A DNA stretch of 43,581 nucleotides from contig JAUNDJ010000006.1 in the NCBI GenBank assembly GCA_030526175.1, forward strand, positions 1 to 43,581. The letters run 5' to 3'. The notes under the pieces are model-generated. The model did no database searches. It was not told where the DNA came from and worked only from the letters and a program-made list of their open reading frames with translations. Each line of letters opens with the position of its first letter. Position 1 is the first letter of the stretch. This document shows, one piece after another, positions 53 through 7,446 of the stretch. The translations under genes were made by a program, and so were the position numbers. Source of the stretch: Bacillota bacterium (GTDB taxonomy: Bacteria > Bacillota_I > Bacilli_A > Erysipelotrichales > Erysipelotrichaceae).

Positions 53-81
53 AAAACTCAAGGACTAACTCCTTGAGTTTT
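53..81. terminator. Bidirectional intrinsic terminator
   Basis: The 12-base arms 53-64 and 70-81 (AAAACTCAAGGA/TCCTTGAGTTTT) pair perfectly around CTAAC. The minus-strand gene ending at 82 stops right at the base of the stem. T-runs flank the hairpin on both strands, so it can end transcription from either side. Confidence 0.85.
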
Positions 82-1887
82 TTAAAATAATCGATTCGAT
101 TGATATAAATAATACGTGTTACAAATTGTTAATGGTCTAGTATTTTCCAAATAGCTTTGAATATGTTTTCTATCCTTTTCCCATTTCTCAAAAGCCGATT
201 TCATACTTTCCGATTTGCCGCGCGAATGAATCAAAAACTCTAAATGTTTTAACACTTCTTCTTTAGAAACGATTCCTTCATCAATCATAATTTCTAAAAT
301 ACGTGTTCGCTGCACATCGCTTAATTGATCTTTAGCCGTATTATATCCATATAAATGCAACATGCTTTCTTCACTATACCCTCGGAAAGTAGATTCTGTA
401 TTCTCTGTCCAATACGAATCACCAACAACTTTACACAATGGACTTCCATATTTTTTTATACGATCAATACATTCATCCAATACATAATACCGGCCACAAT
501 TTGTACAATAATAAGCAGGTGTGTACACTTCATTCGTATTTCCTTTTTCATCCACCACTTTCACTATCGCAGTTAAATGCAAAAGCTTGTGATGAAAACA
601 GTTTTTTAATTCGGTTTGTGTTAAAAAATCCGATATTTGGATATGAACGGGTTCACCTTCTTCCATTTCCATGATCATCGGTTCTTCCAAGTTCATATTC
701 TTAAAATCGTAATAGTAACTAAACTCTTCTTTATAACTCTCTTTTGAAAGATAAAACTGATTTTGTGAATCCTTATATAACTTAACAATCTGATCTGGTA
801 ATAAATAAGCAAGTTGTTGCCGACGTGTTTGTTCTTTAATCGAATCCAATGGTCCTAAAAAGATTGTCTGCCCCATTGTAAAAACATCCACATTTTCTTT
901 TCCATCTTCGCCTTCAAAATATAAGATAATAGAATCATCTTTAGAAATAGAAGAAATCATTGTTTTAAAAATCCGATTGGCATTAAAAGGGACATCTGAA
1001 AAATATGTCGCTTTTTTAATATCGATTCGACCAATGGAATTAAAATCTTCATTAAATGGACGAGATACAATAAACTTAAATCGAACATACCCATCTTTTA
1101 CTAAATAGATTGTATCGTTAGTTTGTATCGATTTAATTACAGTCCATAAAGCTTCCACATTTGCGTTATTCGCAAGCTTATTCCCATAATAATGGCGGAT
1201 ACTCTCTTGTAACATACTAGGCGAATCAAAGTTTAATCCAGCCAACAATTTCCAGCCAAAGTTTAAAGACCCTTTGTATTCAATGTGCCATGGATCTTTT
1301 GAAGCAGGATGATCTAAGTTCAGAATCCAACATCTTTGACTTCTTTCTCTAACCTTTTGTCCAATATACTTCTTAAAATAAGGTCCATCTTCTTCACGTT
1401 CCAGATCAAATTCTCGTTTAATATCGATTTCCAATTCCGATTGATCAACAATATCAACAATTTTGAAAAAAAGAGTTAGAACTGTATTCAGATTCGCATG
1501 ATACACATCTTTTTGAGAATTCCATTGAAGTATTGTTTTATTTTCATCCGGAAAAAATACTTGATTGGAATAAATAGTATGATTTAAAAATGTAAATTTA
1601 AAAGTTTCAACTTCCTCTTCTTCCGGAAAAGGACGGGATTCTAAAAGATCCTTGATTGTAAAAATATCCTGTTCGGATTGTAAAATATCAAGTATTCGAT
1701 TGGTACAATCGGTACTCAATGGAAATACCCACTTAAATTGATTCTCCTTAATAAAAACCAAAGAATCCTTTAAGACAATAAATTTCTTCATTTCAAAAAG
1801 TGACATTGATTTAGATTTTTCAAAACTAAAAATAGAATTCTTTTCTAATGTTTCAATTTCATCATATCCAGTTAAGTGCATTTCCAT
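82..1887 (-). CDS. Uncharacterised 601-aa protein with a four-cysteine zinc knuckle
   Basis: I do not recognise a named function. The protein is cytoplasmic by appearance, with no signal peptide or membrane segment. Residues 461-485 carry CxxC-x8-C-x11-C (CTNCGRYY... then PLC), a probable zinc-binding unit. It is followed by a helical, charged C-terminal region (about 515-580) starting near LHLYGYN. I have the impression that similar C-termini occur in other unannotated Firmicutes proteins. An upstream TTG is possible, but the ATG at 1887 is preferred: AAAGGAG lies 9 bases before it and only about 3 before the TTG. It is the last gene of the LRR/exonuclease cluster but has its own TATAAT, so it may also be transcribed alone. 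It ends at a strong terminator. Confidence 0.8.
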   Translation of the reverse strand: MEMHLTGYDEIETLEKNSIFSFEKSKSMSLFEMKKFIVLKDSLVFIKENQFKWVFPLSTDCTNRILDILQSEQDIFTIKDLLESRPFPEEEEVETFKFTFLNHTIYSNQVFFPDENKTILQWNSQKDVYHANLNTVLTLFFKIVDIVDQSELEIDIKREFDLEREEDGPYFKKYIGQKVRERSQRCWILNLDHPASKDPWHIEYKGSLNFGWKLLAGLNFDSPSMLQESIRHYYGNKLANNANVEALWTVIKSIQTNDTIYLVKDGYVRFKFIVSRPFNEDFNSIGRIDIKKATYFSDVPFNANRIFKTMISSISKDDSIILYFEGEDGKENVDVFTMGQTIFLGPLDSIKEQTRRQQLAYLLPDQIVKLYKDSQNQFYLSKESYKEEFSYYYDFKNMNLEEPMIMEMEEGEPVHIQISDFLTQTELKNCFHHKLLHLTAIVKVVDEKGNTNEVYTPAYYCTNCGRYYVLDECIDRIKKYGSPLCKVVGDSYWTENTESTFRGYSEESMLHLYGYNTAKDQLSDVQRTRILEIMIDEGIVSKEEVLKHLEFLIHSRGKSESMKSAFEKWEKDRKHIQSYLENTRPLTICNTYYLYQSNRLF

Positions 1888-1907
1888 ATACAAATTCTCC
1901 TTTAACT

Positions 1908-1913
1908 ATTATA
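1908..1913 (-). promoter_or_regulatory. Probable -10 element (TATAAT) for the 601-aa gene
   Basis: A perfect TATAAT lies about 20 bases before the AAAGGAG/ATG of the downstream gene and just after a hairpin with a T-run. No good -35 hexamer is visible at 17 bases, so strength is uncertain. Confidence 0.5.
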
Positions 1914-1914
1914 C

Positions 1915-1948
1915 AAGAAAAAAAGGGGAATGCACGAACTTGTGATTC
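1915..1948 (-). terminator. Probable terminator after the pseudo-hydrolase gene
   Basis: On the minus strand, GAATCAC pairs with GTG(C)ATTC (1942-1948 with 1928-1935, one bulged base) around a 6-base loop. CCCC and a run of Ts follow. It separates the 601-aa gene from the four genes before it. Confidence 0.55.
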
Positions 1949-1963
1949 TCTTTTTTAAATCTT

Positions 1964-2899
1964 CTAATTACAAGTAAACATGCTTACACGATCAAGTAAA
2001 TCTTGACTTTCCTCCAATTCAGGATGCTCTATCGCAAAAGAATGACATAATTCTTCGTTTTTATACTTCTTCAAACGTGCATTTTTTCCTGCATTGATGC
2101 AAGATTTATATAATCGTTCACAACCGCCTCGGTTTGAATCTTTGCTCGAAGTAAAAATGTATAGTGGTGGTAATTCACAATGGTGTACTAAAAAATCCGT
2201 TTGCGTAAACTCTCCATACTTAGTTTTCCAATCAAAACCCCAAATCTGATTCGCAAAAACGTTTTTCTTTTCATCTTTTTTTATAGTTTGGAATGCACCA
2301 CTAATCAAAACCAGACTCTGAATCTTATACTTTGAAGGAGATACTTCAAATAAACGAGATATCTGGCTGCTACGAGAAGCCGCCGCAAGATACAAAGCCA
2401 ACAAAGCCCCCGCTCCATTACCAATCAAATGGATTTTCTCAACTATATCTACCTTCTTTGACAATTGCGATATGGCTTCGTCAATATGATTAGAAATCGC
2501 TTGTAACATGTCGGATATTTTATTCTCCGGAGCTAATGGATATTGAACAGATATTACAATACACCCTTGTTCACTCAAAAATGAATTAAAGACATTATTC
2601 GAATCCTTATTCCCAGTAATAAAAGATCCTCCATATAGACTAATAATAATTTTTTCCCTTCCTAAAAACATTTTCGGATAAAAAATATTAAAATTTTCAT
2701 ATTCTTCAAGAACGACTCGTCTTGAAATAGATTGCACTTTTTCTTTTTTCTTTTGTTTCTTATTAAAATCCTTTCTTTCTTGATTAACTAAAAAACGAAA
2801 CAAACGGCTGTTTGGCTTTTTTATCTCATGAAATATCACGAATAAAATAAGCATTATTATTCCAATTAATATCAGAACAGCAACTCCTAGTTTTCCCAT
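1964..2899 (-). CDS. Membrane-anchored alpha/beta-hydrolase-fold protein lacking the nucleophile serine
   Basis: The first about 23 residues are one hydrophobic segment (GVAVLILIGIIMLILFVIF), followed by a basic linker. The rest matches the HSL/carboxylesterase type of alpha/beta hydrolase: oxyanion-loop-like LYGGSF (about 89-94), YPLAPE (120-125), and candidate acid and histidine residues at SSKD (Asp254) and CHSF (His286). The nucleophile elbow reads G-N-G-A-G at 160-164, so the usual GxSxG serine is glycine; the codons are GGT AAT GGA GCG GGG. Ordinary esterase activity is therefore unlikely and a binding or scaffold role is possible. A GTG at 2908 would overlap the preceding TGA, but ATG at 2899 has the better spacing from AGAGGTGA. 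Cluster context: directly after the exonuclease gene. Confidence 0.85.
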   Translation of the reverse strand: MGKLGVAVLILIGIIMLILFVIFHEIKKPNSRLFRFLVNQERKDFNKKQKKKEKVQSISRRVVLEEYENFNIFYPKMFLGREKIIISLYGGSFITGNKDSNNVFNSFLSEQGCIVISVQYPLAPENKISDMLQAISNHIDEAISQLSKKVDIVEKIHLIGNGAGALLALYLAAASRSSQISRLFEVSPSKYKIQSLVLISGAFQTIKKDEKKNVFANQIWGFDWKTKYGEFTQTDFLVHHCELPPLYIFTSSKDSNRGGCERLYKSCINAGKNARLKKYKNEELCHSFAIEHPELEESQDLLDRVSMFTCN

Positions 2900-2904
2900 T
2901 ACAC

Positions 2905-3468
2905 TCACCTCTTTATAGCCGAAACCTTATATACTTCTAAAGGATGCGACAAGTATTGCATAATTTTCAATTCGTCAAGTGCATCACACAAGGCATTATG
3001 TACTTCTCGATAATCCTCATTCTTACTCAATAATTGAAGAATCGGTTCGACACCATAATTTCGTTTTAATCGCCCTGTCTTAAAACATGGCATTTGTTCA
3101 TGAATAAATGAATTGTACTCTTTATATGCGGCTAAACGCAAGATGTCATACCATTCAAATTCTTGAAGTTGAGGCAAATGTGAAAAATCAAAACCAGCAT
3201 TATACGCAAATATTTTTTTTACACCATATAACGCGAACCAGTCTAAAATATCTTCAATAGCTTGTTGATAAGAACAGATACGATTTACACGAACAGAATC
3301 TATAAACAAGACACTAGAAAATAATCCACCTTTTTTATAAGCAGGATCTATCACAATATACTTTCCTCGAAAAGGTTCCATTGTGATTTCATCCGCCAAA
3401 ACAATTCCTATCGACATTACTTCATTTTTCCAGTTTGTTTCTGTATCTAATACTGCAAAATATCCCAT
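2905..3468 (-). CDS. DEDDh 3'-5' exonuclease (DnaQ-like)
   Basis: A 187-residue single-domain nuclease of the DnaQ/RNase T superfamily, which removes nucleotides from 3' ends using two metal ions. The motifs are complete: ExoI DTET (Asp8, Glu10), ExoII with FAYNAGFD (Asp94), and ExoIII with His157 and Asp162 in VHNALCD. The His five residues before the last Asp makes it the DEDDh type. It lacks polymerase, BRCT or helicase domains, so whether it acts on DNA or RNA is open. It sits 5 bases after the Cys-tailed unknown and runs into the pseudo-hydrolase gene, so co-translation is likely. AGGA is 7 bases before the ATG. Confidence 0.88.
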   Translation of the reverse strand: MGYFAVLDTETNWKNEVMSIGIVLADEITMEPFRGKYIVIDPAYKKGGLFSSVLFIDSVRVNRICSYQQAIEDILDWFALYGVKKIFAYNAGFDFSHLPQLQEFEWYDILRLAAYKEYNSFIHEQMPCFKTGRLKRNYGVEPILQLLSKNEDYREVHNALCDALDELKIMQYLSHPLEVYKVSAIKR

Positions 3469-3473
3469 ATATT

Positions 3474-4166
3474 TTATTCCTGAATTTCCAACCGTTTACC
3501 ACAAGTGCATTCCACACAAATCTTATGTTTTCCAAATATATAAAGAAAATCCTCTTCAAGGCAATGTGGATGTCCTTTTATAAAATTTTGAACTTCCAAA
3601 ATAGATTTTCCTTGAATCATAAATGTTTTTTCTTTTGGTTTAAAAGAATGAACTTCTTGAAGACACGTTGTGCTAATATCATCCATTCCAAAAAAAGCTT
3701 CTTCTTCAAACCAAAGGTTCTTTTTTGGAAAAGTAGAAAGTACATCCTTTCCTTTTTTAATATGAATCCATTCAGAAAAAGAAACATCATCTTTTTCAAA
3801 ACCATATTGTGCTATATCTGTTTCAATAATCAATGCTCGCGTTAAAAAATTTCTATATTTTAATTCTTTATTTTCAAAATAATTCTGTTCTTCCTGGATG
3901 ACATATATTGCTTGAATGGTTTCATCAACCATTATATCTTCAAAAGATTCATAAGAATCTTCTTCCAAAGAAAAGATGGCCGTGTTCTCTTCTTGACCAT
4001 AATAATCCAAAAATGAACTCGTATTACTGATTTCATAGTATTCATTTCCAATATGTAATTGTACATAAGCGTTGGATAAATGTGTCGATTCCAGAGACGT
4101 TAGTCCATAGCTATGAAATCTTTTTCCTATCCAAGAAGAAAAATCTTTTTTCCAACGAGTATCCAT
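3474..4166 (-). CDS. Uncharacterised 230-aa protein with a Cys-rich C-terminus
   Basis: No family is recognised. The protein is acidic, with no signal peptide or membrane span, and looks cytoplasmic. The C-terminus carries ICVECTCG (C-x2-C-x-C), with HPHC some 25 residues before; together these could bind a metal. It begins three bases after the end of the leucine-rich-repeat gene and has a strong AAAGGAG site 8 bases before the ATG, so it is made from the same transcript. The only functional clue is its constant company in this cluster: an LRR protein before it and a 3'-5' exonuclease after it. Confidence 0.75.
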   Translation of the reverse strand: MDTRWKKDFSSWIGKRFHSYGLTSLESTHLSNAYVQLHIGNEYYEISNTSSFLDYYGQEENTAIFSLEEDSYESFEDIMVDETIQAIYVIQEEQNYFENKELKYRNFLTRALIIETDIAQYGFEKDDVSFSEWIHIKKGKDVLSTFPKKNLWFEEEAFFGMDDISTTCLQEVHSFKPKEKTFMIQGKSILEVQNFIKGHPHCLEEDFLYIFGKHKICVECTCGKRLEIQE

Positions 4167-4169
4167 AAT

Positions 4170-6383
4170 CTATTCTCCTTTAAAATGAATCAATCTACGA
4201 TTCGCAAACGCTTCCGCATAAGAACCTGTTTTTCCATAAATTGTAAGGTTTGTACAATTTGAAAAAGAATCTGGATGTACCAGAACCAAAGACGCTGGCC
4301 ATAAAACCGTTTCTAAACGAGGACAATCCGAGAAAAAAGCCCCGTATTCGTCTTTCAAAATGGCATAAACCCCTTCTTCAAAAACAACTTTTTTTAAATT
4401 CGCCTGTTTCTGACAAATCGAAACTTGTAAAGTATGCAGGCTCTTAGGTATCCATAAGGACTCGATTCCATTAATTGAATAACGATCTAGACCAATAGTT
4501 CCATCTTTTATAATCAGATTTCTTTTATTCGAATACCAAAGATATTTTCCTATATAAAATTCAATTTCATTTTTAGACAATCGAGTTTCTTCGTAAAATT
4601 TTGTATCTTTAAATGCCCCCTGCACAATTTCTTTACATTCACAAGATGCAGCCCCTTCTAATGTCTCCAGCGATTTACAACCTAGAAAAGCTTGTGAAGA
4701 AATCTTTTTCAAAGACGTTGGTAAAACAACTTTTTCAAGTTTCCAACAATCTTTAAAACAAGCACTCTGAATTACTTCTATAGAAGGCAGGATCACTTGT
4801 TTCAATGCCTTACATCCAAGAAAAGCTTCTTCTTCTATCTCTCGGATTGAAGAAGGTAAGATTATGCTCTCTAATTTATCACATCCTTGAAAACAACCTT
4901 TACCTAAAGACAAACAACCCGGTTGTATCATAACACGCTTTAAAGAAGTACAATTCTTAAAAGAATGTGTACCTATTTTCTGCAAACTAGCTGGAAGCTC
5001 TACTTCTTCTAAAGATATACAATTTGAAAAAGCTTCTTCTGCAATTTCAACCGTATTATCTAATACCACTCGTTTTAAGGAGAAGCAGTTTTTAAAAGCT
5101 TCTTTTTCCAACAAAGGGGCTGAGCTAGTTATTGAATCAATACACATGTGATTCCTATATTTCCCAGATTCATAACATAAAGTATACGTTTCCCTTTTCT
5201 TTTTCTGTTTCCCCTTACGAGAAAAGTCAAACAATAAAGAAGGAAAAGCAGAAAGAGTCATGGCGCGTTTTTTTGAATACGACACACCTATCGAAGTCAT
5301 CCATTCACGAATTTGGATTAAAGGCGTCTCTATCCAATTTTCTTTTGTCCCAATTACCTTTTCCTTTCCATCCCAATATAAATAAAAGATACGAGAAGAA
5401 TCATTGATATCACGAACAATCATAAACACAGCACATTCTTTTTTGCCAATTCTTTTCCATATTTCTTCCAATAGCTCACAAGCATGAATTCTAGTGCTAT
5501 TACGAACAAATTGACTCTTCCAATTATCTATGCAGATATCTTGATTGTTCCCAAAATCAGAAAAGTCAGGCAGAGCAAAAGATTCAGGAAAAGGTTCGAT
5601 TTCCTTCCAATCCACCTCTTCTTTGGTAGAAATGAACAAAGAAGCATTTCCTTGCGTTCCATATGTTAAATATTGACCTTCTAAATTATCCCATAAACGA
5701 TTGTCAATAACAGTGTATCTAGAATTGTCTTTCAGCTCTATTTTTTCTAACGCATAACATCTAGAAAACGCACTAGGATCGATATACTCAATCGATGCTG
5801 GTAAAGTGAGATGAGTAAATGTCGAGAAAGAAAGAAATGTATCTTTTTCAATGTATTTTACACCATCAGGAATGATAAGTGTTTTGCCAAAGTTCAGATT
5901 CTGAACATTACCTGCATAAAGATAGTCTTGGCACTTTTTGGTGTTTGTAGCAAGTATTACAGGTTCTTCTTTTATAATTTGAAGCGTATCATAATCGGAA
6001 AATTGAAACTCCTCAAAACATATTTGTGGATCTTTTTTCCCTTGTTCAAAAAATACATACGTACCTTCTTCCATATCGTAGTTATACAACCTTTCAAAAG
6101 AAGATGAGGTATTATAATATATCGCTTTTATAGATATCGCTTTAACATGAGCAATTGACGGTAGTTTTCTTTCAATTTGCCAAATTGAAGCATCCATTTT
6201 CTGGTAAAACTCTTCAACATTTTTAGAACATCCCAATTGTTTAGGACTTGTTAAGAATACTATGCCACTTTGCCATTTGTCTTTATAAAAAGTTAGAGTA
6301 TCTATTTTATGCGTATAAGATTTTTTTTGCCCATTTTTAAAATGTATCGTAAGTATATATTCAAAATAATTGCTTTTTTTCAT
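4170..6383 (-). CDS. Cytoplasmic BspA-type leucine-rich-repeat protein (LRR_5)
   Basis: A 737-residue protein with three blocks of BspA/LRR_5 repeats: one near 170-220, a long one near 425-595 (units of the type 'AF.NC.SLK.V.LP.SL..I'), and a terminal one near 630-725. It ends in the typical closing unit TIYGKTGSYAEAFA. A unique region of about 200 residues (240-420) separates the first two blocks and ends in a lysine-rich stretch. Most BspA-type proteins are secreted and have a signal peptide, whereas this one starts MKKSNYFEYILTIHF with none and has no sorting motif. It therefore probably acts inside the cell as a binding platform. It is the first gene of the cluster. AGAGGG precedes the ATG by 9 bases; no convincing promoter is visible in the 85-base gap, so read-through from the lipoprotein gene is possible. 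Confidence 0.85.
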   Translation of the reverse strand: MKKSNYFEYILTIHFKNGQKKSYTHKIDTLTFYKDKWQSGIVFLTSPKQLGCSKNVEEFYQKMDASIWQIERKLPSIAHVKAISIKAIYYNTSSSFERLYNYDMEEGTYVFFEQGKKDPQICFEEFQFSDYDTLQIIKEEPVILATNTKKCQDYLYAGNVQNLNFGKTLIIPDGVKYIEKDTFLSFSTFTHLTLPASIEYIDPSAFSRCYALEKIELKDNSRYTVIDNRLWDNLEGQYLTYGTQGNASLFISTKEEVDWKEIEPFPESFALPDFSDFGNNQDICIDNWKSQFVRNSTRIHACELLEEIWKRIGKKECAVFMIVRDINDSSRIFYLYWDGKEKVIGTKENWIETPLIQIREWMTSIGVSYSKKRAMTLSAFPSLLFDFSRKGKQKKKRETYTLCYESGKYRNHMCIDSITSSAPLLEKEAFKNCFSLKRVVLDNTVEIAEEAFSNCISLEEVELPASLQKIGTHSFKNCTSLKRVMIQPGCLSLGKGCFQGCDKLESIILPSSIREIEEEAFLGCKALKQVILPSIEVIQSACFKDCWKLEKVVLPTSLKKISSQAFLGCKSLETLEGAASCECKEIVQGAFKDTKFYEETRLSKNEIEFYIGKYLWYSNKRNLIIKDGTIGLDRYSINGIESLWIPKSLHTLQVSICQKQANLKKVVFEEGVYAILKDEYGAFFSDCPRLETVLWPASLVLVHPDSFSNCTNLTIYGKTGSYAEAFANRRLIHFKGE

Positions 6384-6417
6384 GCATTAATTCCCTCTAG
6401 ATAAGTTTACACACAAA

Positions 6418-6448
6418 ACTAAAAAAAAGAAATCACAAAGATTTCTTT
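6418..6448 (-). terminator. Intrinsic terminator of the TPR/SH3 lipoprotein gene
   Basis: A 9-bp perfect stem (6440-6448 with 6426-6434, AAAGAAATC/GATTTCTTT on the minus strand) with a 5-base loop is followed on the minus strand by a long T-run. Confidence 0.8.
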
Positions 6449-6468
6449 CTATCTTATCTGCATATCTC

Positions 6469-7446
6469 TTAATAAACAATAAATACATCATCACAGCTCA
6501 TCGTACGATTCACATTTCCAGTAAATGTGGATGCATCTCGATAACCACCAAGACCATTCACGGCTGGACACACTTGTTCAATAAAAGTATTGTTGTCATT
6601 ATTAAAATCTGCGGAAACTGGTACACGATTTCGATAGAACGATAAGTATTCCGTCTGTGAATCCTTAATACATACATAGCCCGTGGATAAGACCCCCCAA
6701 TAGCTTCCATCGTCCGCTTTAACGATTTCATCAATCACGATTTGTAGCTGACTAGCAAAACTTCCTTCAACACTTGAAAAAACATTGGCTTCACTACGAA
6801 CGTTCATTCGATAATTCGAAATATACATCCCTGGTACATATTCATAAGGGCTTTGTTCAACAATCACAATCGCTTGTTTTTCTAAAACATTCCCTTTTTT
6901 GTCTTTTAAAGTTACAGTAAGGGGGTATTGCCCGGCTTTTTGAAAATCCACTTTTGAATCATTCACAATCATTGAAAATTCAATTGCACATTTCCCTTCA
7001 AAATAATCGTTATAATCAATAACACTATTCTCATAGACGGTAATTTGATCTACCGCTTTTGAAAATTGTAAATTGGTTACTTCTAACGGTTTATCTTCTT
7101 TACTTTTCCCAATTTGTTCCAAAAATTGTTTATATTCCTTTTCTGATAAGTTCTTTTCTGCCTCATTTTCAATTTCAGTACAACCTTTTTTATCCGATAA
7201 CTCCGTATAAGCTTTATACAATTTGGCATAGACTTCAGATTTTGTTCGATCTTTTTCAAAGGCTTTTAAATAGTTTTGTACAGCTTTTTGATAATTTTTT
7301 TGTTTAAAAAGAACATCTCCATGTTCTAAATATGAAATATAAGTTTCTTGTTCCTGTATTTCTTTTTTATTCGTATCCGTAGTTGTGTTCGCACATCCTA
7401 CACATAGAAGTGAAGACAATAAAAACGCATATAGGATTTTTTTCAT
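6469..7446 (-). CDS. Lipoprotein with TPR, Ig-like and bacterial SH3 domains
   Basis: The N-terminus is a lipoprotein signal peptide with the modified cysteine at about Cys18 (LLCVGC), so the protein should be anchored on the outer face of the membrane. Then follow a short TPR-like helical repeat (about 40-110), an Ig-like region of the DUF5011 kind (about 125-200, ending with a strand pattern typical of 'AGQYPLTVTLKD'), and a bacterial SH3 domain (about 205-275, containing MNVRSEAN). SH3 domains of this type often bind cell-wall material; the exact ligand is unknown. A monocistronic unit: extended -10 promoter upstream and a terminator downstream. GGAG lies 7 bases before the ATG. Confidence 0.82.
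   Translation of the reverse strand: MKKILYAFLLSSLLCVGCANTTTDTNKKEIQEQETYISYLEHGDVLFKQKNYQKAVQNYLKAFEKDRTKSEVYAKLYKAYTELSDKKGCTEIENEAEKNLSEKEYKQFLEQIGKSKEDKPLEVTNLQFSKAVDQITVYENSVIDYNDYFEGKCAIEFSMIVNDSKVDFQKAGQYPLTVTLKDKKGNVLEKQAIVIVEQSPYEYVPGMYISNYRMNVRSEANVFSSVEGSFASQLQIVIDEIVKADDGSYWGVLSTGYVCIKDSQTEYLSFYRNRVPVSADFNNDNNTFIEQVCPAVNGLGGYRDASTFTGNVNRTMSCDDVFIVY

Follow-up and report, generated by a model that had tools for sequence, protein, structure and literature searches.

A recurrent gene unit encoding a leucine-rich-repeat protein, a DEDDh exonuclease and one exchangeable slot, tentatively read as a conflict cassette

The window (the whole stretch of 43,581 nucleotides analysed here) carries five consecutive genes, referred to as LRR, CYS, EXO, ABH and ZN, whose status as a unit is well supported. 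The unit consists of a core of four genes (LRR, CYS, EXO and ZN) and one swappable slot, because an unrelated gene takes the place of the pseudo-hydrolase gene ABH in G059, a second genome of the same genus. Tentatively, we read it as a genus-specific, relocatable conflict cassette, most likely acting against phages or other mobile elements and having a nuclease effector.

Organization of the locus

Five genes in one direction had been claimed in the initial annotation, and five minus-strand ORFs were found. LRR (4170..6383; 737 aa) is followed by CYS (3474..4166; 230 aa) and EXO (2905..3468; 187 aa). ABH (1964..2908) codes for 314 aa from a GTG; its likely start is the ATG at 2899, preceded by the ribosome site AGAGGTG. 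ZN (82..1893) codes for 603 aa from a TTG, and its likely start is the ATG at 1887. The gaps of +3, +5 and +5 bases given earlier were borne out, that between EXO and ABH with the ATG start; the gap before ZN had been put at 64 bases and is about 70-76. The flank in the window consists of housekeeping genes, and the unit has the same base composition as the remaining contig (32 vs 33% G+C).

The 5' leader of LRR (6384..6468, minus strand) contains a hairpin, GAAATC(N5)GATTTC, a T run and then GTGTAAA, and is similar in G059 despite a different upstream gene. The spacer between ABH and ZN (1894..1963, minus strand) holds a hairpin with a T run, then TTGTATAAT and then AAAGGAG; the layout before ZN in G059 matches (hairpin, GTGTATAAT, AGGAG). 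In both genomes, ZN is thus probably transcribed from a separate promoter, judging from the hairpin, TATAAT and ribosome site; a consensus promoter scan did not list this candidate. A terminator-like hairpin of 12 pairs lies 3' of ZN (53..81, minus strand), and the contig ends 81 bases past the gene, just beyond it.

Recurrence and distribution of the unit

One other genus member, G059, shows the same arrangement (LRR, CYS, EXO, fourth gene, ZN), and there LRR, CYS, EXO and ZN are 42, 43, 65 and 68% identical to the window proteins. Since these four are all encoded in G059 with dN below dS, the comparison indicates that the five ORFs are not chance, and it points to purifying selection on the five genes, with dS saturated. 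Between the window and G059, dN was 0.57 for LRR and 0.51 for CYS, 0.26 for EXO and 0.23 for ZN, and 0.06-0.07 for MurT and GatD. The rates of LRR and CYS are about double those of EXO and ZN, as would be expected for recognition parts; an SH3 lipoprotein, with dN 0.39, comes close to them, so fast divergence is not specific to such parts.

In the window the upstream order is MurT, GatD, SH3 lipoprotein and then the unit. In G059 the MurT-GatD-SH3 lipoprotein block lies on a different contig from the unit, with an MscS-type channel gene next, and the unit is located after a split ROK kinase. The two copies therefore have different upstream genes and an unoccupied site is present, as for a relocatable unit; the comparison covers the upstream sides, as each contig breaks off inside ZN or shortly behind it.

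The unit was not found in three other genus members, in about 110 genomes of the family or in a scan of 84,980 species, and EXO and ZN were not found in G001, G092 and G115. Searches of viral contigs, plasmids and phages with ZN, EXO or CYS gave no further copy of the unit, so the examples are two, both in one genus. Outside the genus the families occur separately and scattered. The initial annotation had named such scattering as evidence against a joint system; its expectation of co-occurrence holds as a unit within the genus, and the distribution outside speaks in part against it.

The encoded proteins

LRR is of the BspA type (Pfam LRR_5 repeats, E 8e-56), with a non-repeat N-terminal region (about 1-150), repeats from about residue 165 and a conserved C-terminal cap (577-737). 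Its description as an intracellular leucine-rich-repeat protein is sustained: neither a signal peptide nor a membrane segment was found, and hydrophobicity (mean over 19 residues) never rises above 1.3. A surface BspA-type adhesin was rejected, as there is no signal peptide and no cell-wall or membrane anchor. The LRR_5 repeats are common to LRR and BspA / LRR_5 proteins; unlike these, it has no such signal or anchor and shares its N-terminal region and cap with G059 only. That genome has the only full-length relative (42% identity), the cap being 53% and the repeats 36% identical.

Residues about 1-165 of CYS belong to an immunity-like family, and residues about 196-224 form an HxHC..CxECxC tail found only in this genus. 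CYS-like proteins are the third gene of a mobile-element triad (unnamed, found here in prophages and integrative elements) formed by DUF4417, a small '..KIHF' protein and the CYS-like protein, the last being homologous to CYS about 1-165. The triad is present in three genomes (G018, G086, G178), in phage scaffold MT835627 and in an IMG/VR contig, and G092 retains a remnant pair; in contrast to the triad, the window has neither DUF4417 nor a KIHF protein, and CYS adds the Cys tail. In six cases a CYS core relative is encoded immediately behind a small toxin-like gene, but CYS in the window is not. The '..KIHF' proteins (123-143 aa) are only presumed toxins, because they have no Pfam or NCBIfam match. 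In one case (G022) a CYS relative directly adjoins another DEDDh exonuclease.

The identification of EXO as a DEDDh exonuclease holds at the level of its motif: D8, E10, D94, H157 and D162 are unchanged across 11 relatives, so that the four acidic residues and the His of the ExoI-III motifs make up a complete active site. A Pfam match to Sep15_SelM was discarded, being below the cut-off and inside the DEDDh region. EXO corresponds to the exonuclease domain found at the C terminus of an SF1 helicase, here encoded as a protein on its own; its relatives are mostly fused to such helicases, without defence genes nearby. In these SF1 helicase-PDDEXK_3-DEDDh(-HTH_17) proteins (Lachnospiraceae, Ruminococcus, Mycoplasmopsis; unnamed, found here) the exonuclease domain is of EXO's family and 39-54% identical; in the window, by contrast, it stands alone, and no copy of the EXO-linked helicase was found in the window's own genome (assembly about 90% complete). 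An Orn/oligoribonuclease-like housekeeping enzyme was rejected because EXO is missing from nearly all genomes of the family.

ABH has an Abhydrolase_3 fold (Pfam E 6.5e-16) in which the nucleophile Ser and the oxyanion His are lost (GNGAG for GDSAG, YGGS for HGGG); nearly all aligned relatives keep GDSAG and HGGG/HGGA. Together with a single membrane helix at the N terminus (TM hydropathy 3.38 at residue 7), this agrees with the membrane-anchored dead hydrolase proposed earlier, and a catalytic esterase of the hormone-sensitive-lipase type (Abhydrolase_3) was discarded for want of the GDSAG elbow and the HGGG oxyanion motif. Contrary to the earlier assumption, the pseudo-hydrolase is not a fixed part of the cluster: an unrelated 139-aa gene takes the slot in G059, and no trace of ABH was detected there, nor any of the 139-aa gene in the window. 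Pfam AAA_assoc_C for the 139-aa protein, and Pim and YbeY for ZN, were discarded as weak or contradictory.

ZN has a C-terminal metal site, first termed a zinc knuckle; a Cx3H..CxxC zinc-ribbon-like site combined with a helical domain is the more fitting description. A relative of this C-terminal domain lies directly upstream of a BREX locus (brxA-brxB-brxC).

The initial annotation had placed none of the genes in a named defence system, and no PADLOC-DB 2.0.0 system matched: LRR, CYS, ABH and ZN gave no match and EXO only the generic DEDDh model (E 1.6e-9). The suggested proximity to defence islands was seen for relatives of CYS, which often lie next to AbiL (AbiLi-AbiLii), AbiD or type I restriction genes and also have recombinases as neighbours, and for those of the ZN C-terminal domain (BREX, mobile elements), but not for those of EXO (0 of 10 random neighbours match PADLOC); the defence-like neighbours of CYS relatives were picked by eye, and the contrast with EXO is not a fair enrichment test. 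No reliable PDB match was obtained with alignment profiles of CYS, the ZN domain, EXO or KIHF, and AlphaFold2 on two-row alignments reached pLDDT 38.6 for CYS and 39.2 for ZN.

Proposed mechanism and alternative explanations

In the conflict cassette that we tentatively favour, EXO would be the effector and would trim nucleic acid 3'-5'. CYS would bind EXO and restrain or position it, a proposal made by analogy with CYS relatives, which presumably act likewise on the adjoining small gene. LRR would be the sensor, binding an invader-derived or damage-derived ligand and releasing EXO, and ZN may be a nucleic-acid-binding or scaffold accessory, perhaps with a promoter to itself. The gene in slot 4, either ABH or the 139-aa gene, would be an exchangeable accessory, ABH here tethering the complex to the inner membrane face. 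A more specific version is doubtful: an undescribed system against phages or plasmids, in which the intracellular BspA-type LRR protein would sense the invader and release EXO from a Cys-tailed inhibitor of immunity-protein origin, assisted by an exchangeable membrane or accessory subunit and a BREX-linked zinc-ribbon adaptor. If true, an intracellular bacterial leucine-rich-repeat protein would be tied to nucleic-acid defence, and an immunity-protein fold would have been re-used as an exonuclease regulator. Whether this role is right or wrong, three unnamed conserved modules emerge: the DUF4417-KIHF-CYS triad, the SF1 helicase-PDDEXK-DEDDh protein and the BREX-adjoining Cx3H..CxxC helical domain.

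An operon of the MrfAB type for repairing or processing nucleic acid, with EXO trimming damaged ends, ZN binding, and LRR and the slot-4 proteins as scaffold, is rather unlikely. The homology of EXO to the exonuclease domain of the helicase fusion, and the precedent of MrfB, a DEDDh exonuclease with a helicase partner in repair (PMC11194089), argue for it; but that helicase is missing from the roughly 90% complete assembly, the patchy distribution and changed site are unlike housekeeping, and CYS family members sit in mobile-element triads. It is unlikely that accessory genes of separate function merely gathered in a variable region and became co-transcribed by chance: the four genes hold order and direction although their proteins have diverged by 32-58% and the site has changed. 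In favour of it, their families are found apart outside the genus, another gene stands in for ABH in G059, and ZN is apparently transcribed from a promoter of its own.

The position of CYS core relatives after small toxin-like genes, and a variable slot that resembles immunity-gene arrays, would suit an island in which CYS and others are orphan immunity proteins against competitors' toxins, with EXO and ABH as unrelated passengers. We consider this improbable, as the toxin nature of the '..KIHF' neighbours is only presumed and the conserved order of LRR, EXO and ZN is unexpected for passengers. Most improbable is a remnant of a prophage or integrated element (a mobile-element cargo module), to which the relatives of CYS and of the ZN domain in phage scaffolds and beside recombinases, and the differing upstream site, would point; neither an integrase or recombinase nor a structural phage gene was found near either copy in the available sequence, and the G+C content equals that of the rest of the contig.

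Comparison with described systems

Likeness to Gabija (OLD nuclease + UvrD-like helicase) and other nuclease-based defence is one of working principle only, a nuclease effector with regulatory partners. The cluster has no OLD/TOPRIM nuclease, helicase or PADLOC system match, and a Gabija-type system was rejected, with no GajA or GajB in the cluster and no EXO-linked helicase in the genome. In MrfAB of Bacillus subtilis, a helicase and a DEDDh exonuclease act in repair (PMC11194089); as in the window, a small DEDDh exonuclease with the D-E-D-H-D layout is encoded with partner genes, but the window unit has no helicase and its partners are unrelated. MrfB differs further from EXO in having a TPR domain and a long N-terminal insertion (PMC11194089).

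Organization, distribution and transcription of the cassette

All five genes expected at 82-6383 were found, every one on the minus strand and in the order LRR (leucine-rich-repeat protein), CYS (Cys-tailed protein), EXO (DEDDh exonuclease), ABH (pseudo-hydrolase) and ZN (zinc-site protein). The gaps of +3, +5 and +5 given in the initial annotation were recovered (taking the ATG at 2899 as the start of the fourth gene); the last was revised from 64 to about 70-76 bases. The window (contig C147, 43,581 bases; assembly of 2.85 Mb in 186 contigs) ends 81 bases past ZN. A 12-pair hairpin whose tail is T-rich follows ZN at 81-53, so ZN is probably the last gene of the set. Housekeeping genes, including MurT and GatD, lie upstream. 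The adjoining lipoprotein (6469-7446; TPR, Ig-like and SH3-like parts) is fast-evolving, with 56% identity to its G059 counterpart, and its neighbours are highly conserved.

Among 116 genomes of the family, EXO and full-length LRR were each found in just one other, the congeneric G059; ZN has relatives in G059 and, distantly, in G071. The G059 order (LRR, CYS, EXO, a 139-aa gene, ZN) is that of the window. The two fourth-position genes are unrelated, and neither copy showed a trace of the other's gene. The upstream neighbour of the unit also differs, and the hairpin in the 5' leader of LRR is alike in both copies despite the different preceding genes. A ROK-family sugar kinase split into two ORFs, and perhaps broken, precedes the G059 copy (L031:5632-6542). 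The MurT-GatD-SH3 lipoprotein block of G059 is on a different contig, followed by an MscS-type channel gene; other genes follow MurT-GatD in G001 and G092, and the block was not matched in G115. EXO and ZN are absent from these three congeneric genomes.

In both known copies ZN is preceded by a hairpin, TATAAT and a ribosome site, so LRR-CYS-EXO-fourth gene and ZN are probably two transcription units; this TATAAT site was absent from the output of a consensus promoter scan. dN values between the window and G059 were 0.57 (LRR), 0.51 (CYS), 0.26 (EXO) and 0.23 (ZN), as against 0.39 for the SH3 lipoprotein and 0.06-0.07 for MurT/GatD.

Families of the encoded proteins

All five catalytic residues of EXO are invariant among 11 relatives; by its sequence it belongs with the DEDDh exonucleases and would work like them. 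Beyond the genus, most of its nearest relatives form the C-terminal domain of SF1 helicases that carry a PDDEXK_3 segment and often a trailing HTH_17; others stand alone. No such helicase was found in the window's own genome. Unnamed proteins of this architecture, some with a C-terminal HTH_17, were noted in Lachnospiraceae and Ruminococcus (L041:8114-10558, L044:7871-10972, L048:8177-10945 and L051:8141-10942), and a related Mycoplasmopsis locus (L053) gave split ORFs when read with table 11.

CYS matched no family in family searches and has a C-terminal HxHC..CxECxC tail. Its residues about 1-165 define a family. In G018, G086 and G178, as well as on the phage scaffold MT835627 and one IMG/VR contig, the CYS-family gene lies directly 3' of DUF4417 and a 123-143-aa '..KIHF' protein; G092, of the window's genus, keeps the last two genes, the small one shortened. 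This conserved, unnamed triad (L035:6475-8070, L036:5761-7355, L063:5528-7158, L067:3252-4871 and L110:1-1325) occurs in prophage-like or integrative elements, often adjoining Abi or recombinase genes. It looks like a toxin-immunity module; that '..KIHF' is the toxin is guessed from how the genes are arranged. The CYS relative of G022 lies directly 3' of a different DEDDh exonuclease, an independent CYS-exonuclease pairing (L034:7306-8809). This exonuclease (304 aa, RNase_T) has membrane segments, and a type I restriction R gene lies about 3.3 kb from the pair.

LRR carries BspA-type LRR_5 repeats (E 8e-56). It shares these with the surface BspA adhesins but lacks their export and anchoring features, with neither signal peptide nor membrane segment in its sequence. 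In this fast-evolving protein the cap is better conserved than the repeats (window vs G059). ABH has an Abhydrolase_3 fold (E 6.5e-16) after a single N-terminal membrane helix and a Lys/Arg-rich stretch; by the positive-inside rule the domain probably faces the cytoplasm. It has GNGAG at the nucleophile elbow and YGGS at the oxyanion motif, in place of the GDSAG and HGGG or HGGA of nearly all aligned relatives from the same family; unlike Abhydrolase_3-type enzymes, ABH is predicted to be catalytically dead.

ZN matched no named family. Its C-terminus combines Cx3H..CxxC with a helical 'LSxxxRxxIL..HL..LI..A..KW..D' domain, relatives of which occur in phage scaffolds, adjoining an AAA+ gene (G071), and with a WYL/PIN gene group on one side and brxA-brxB-brxC on the other (G420). 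The last locus (L060:4541-14640, also with PIN7-like and SIMPL-like genes) encodes a 670-aa protein immediately 5' of the BREX genes, possibly a BREX accessory; the G071 relative, whose companions are an AAA+ ATPase (IetA-like match) and two uncharacterised genes (L032:4752-9793), may form a separate unnamed cluster. Neither CYS nor ZN gave a usable structure model.

Proposed function

The cluster is a real, undescribed cassette at the genus level and a rare unit, known from two copies whose contigs both end within or just after ZN. Its proteins matched no named system in PADLOC. In the likeliest, still tentative reading, EXO would be the effector and CYS, from a family whose genes are paired with small toxin-like or nuclease genes, would restrain or position it; LRR, with its fast evolution and better conserved cap, would be the sensor, ZN a nucleic-acid or protein adaptor, and ABH would anchor the complex to the membrane in the window's species. 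What was observed of this scheme is the unit with its exchanged fourth gene, the complete exonuclease motif of EXO, the dead hydrolase motif of ABH, and the families to which the pieces belong.

A repair function seems rather unlikely. MrfB of Bacillus subtilis is a characterised DEDDh exonuclease in DNA repair (PMC11194089), but it has a helicase partner and the window cluster encodes none. That the genes are chance neighbours is unlikely. The initial annotation had held that scattered homologues would speak against a system, and beyond the genus they are scattered: when 84,980 species genomes were scanned, 17 relatives of EXO came up, and only the G059 record (MAG E4_26, JAGHTX010000083) has LRR, CYS and ZN as well. 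Within the genus they are not scattered. An element remnant is very improbable.

A putative tie between the cassette and conflict systems is credible. Its being part of an immunity island is distinctly improbable. Neighbours of CYS relatives include AbiLi-AbiLii (G018), AbiD (G092), type I restriction (G022) and recombinases; having been chosen by eye, these carry no statistical claim of enrichment. Ten random neighbours of EXO relatives gave no defence match, and EXO by itself is therefore no defence marker.
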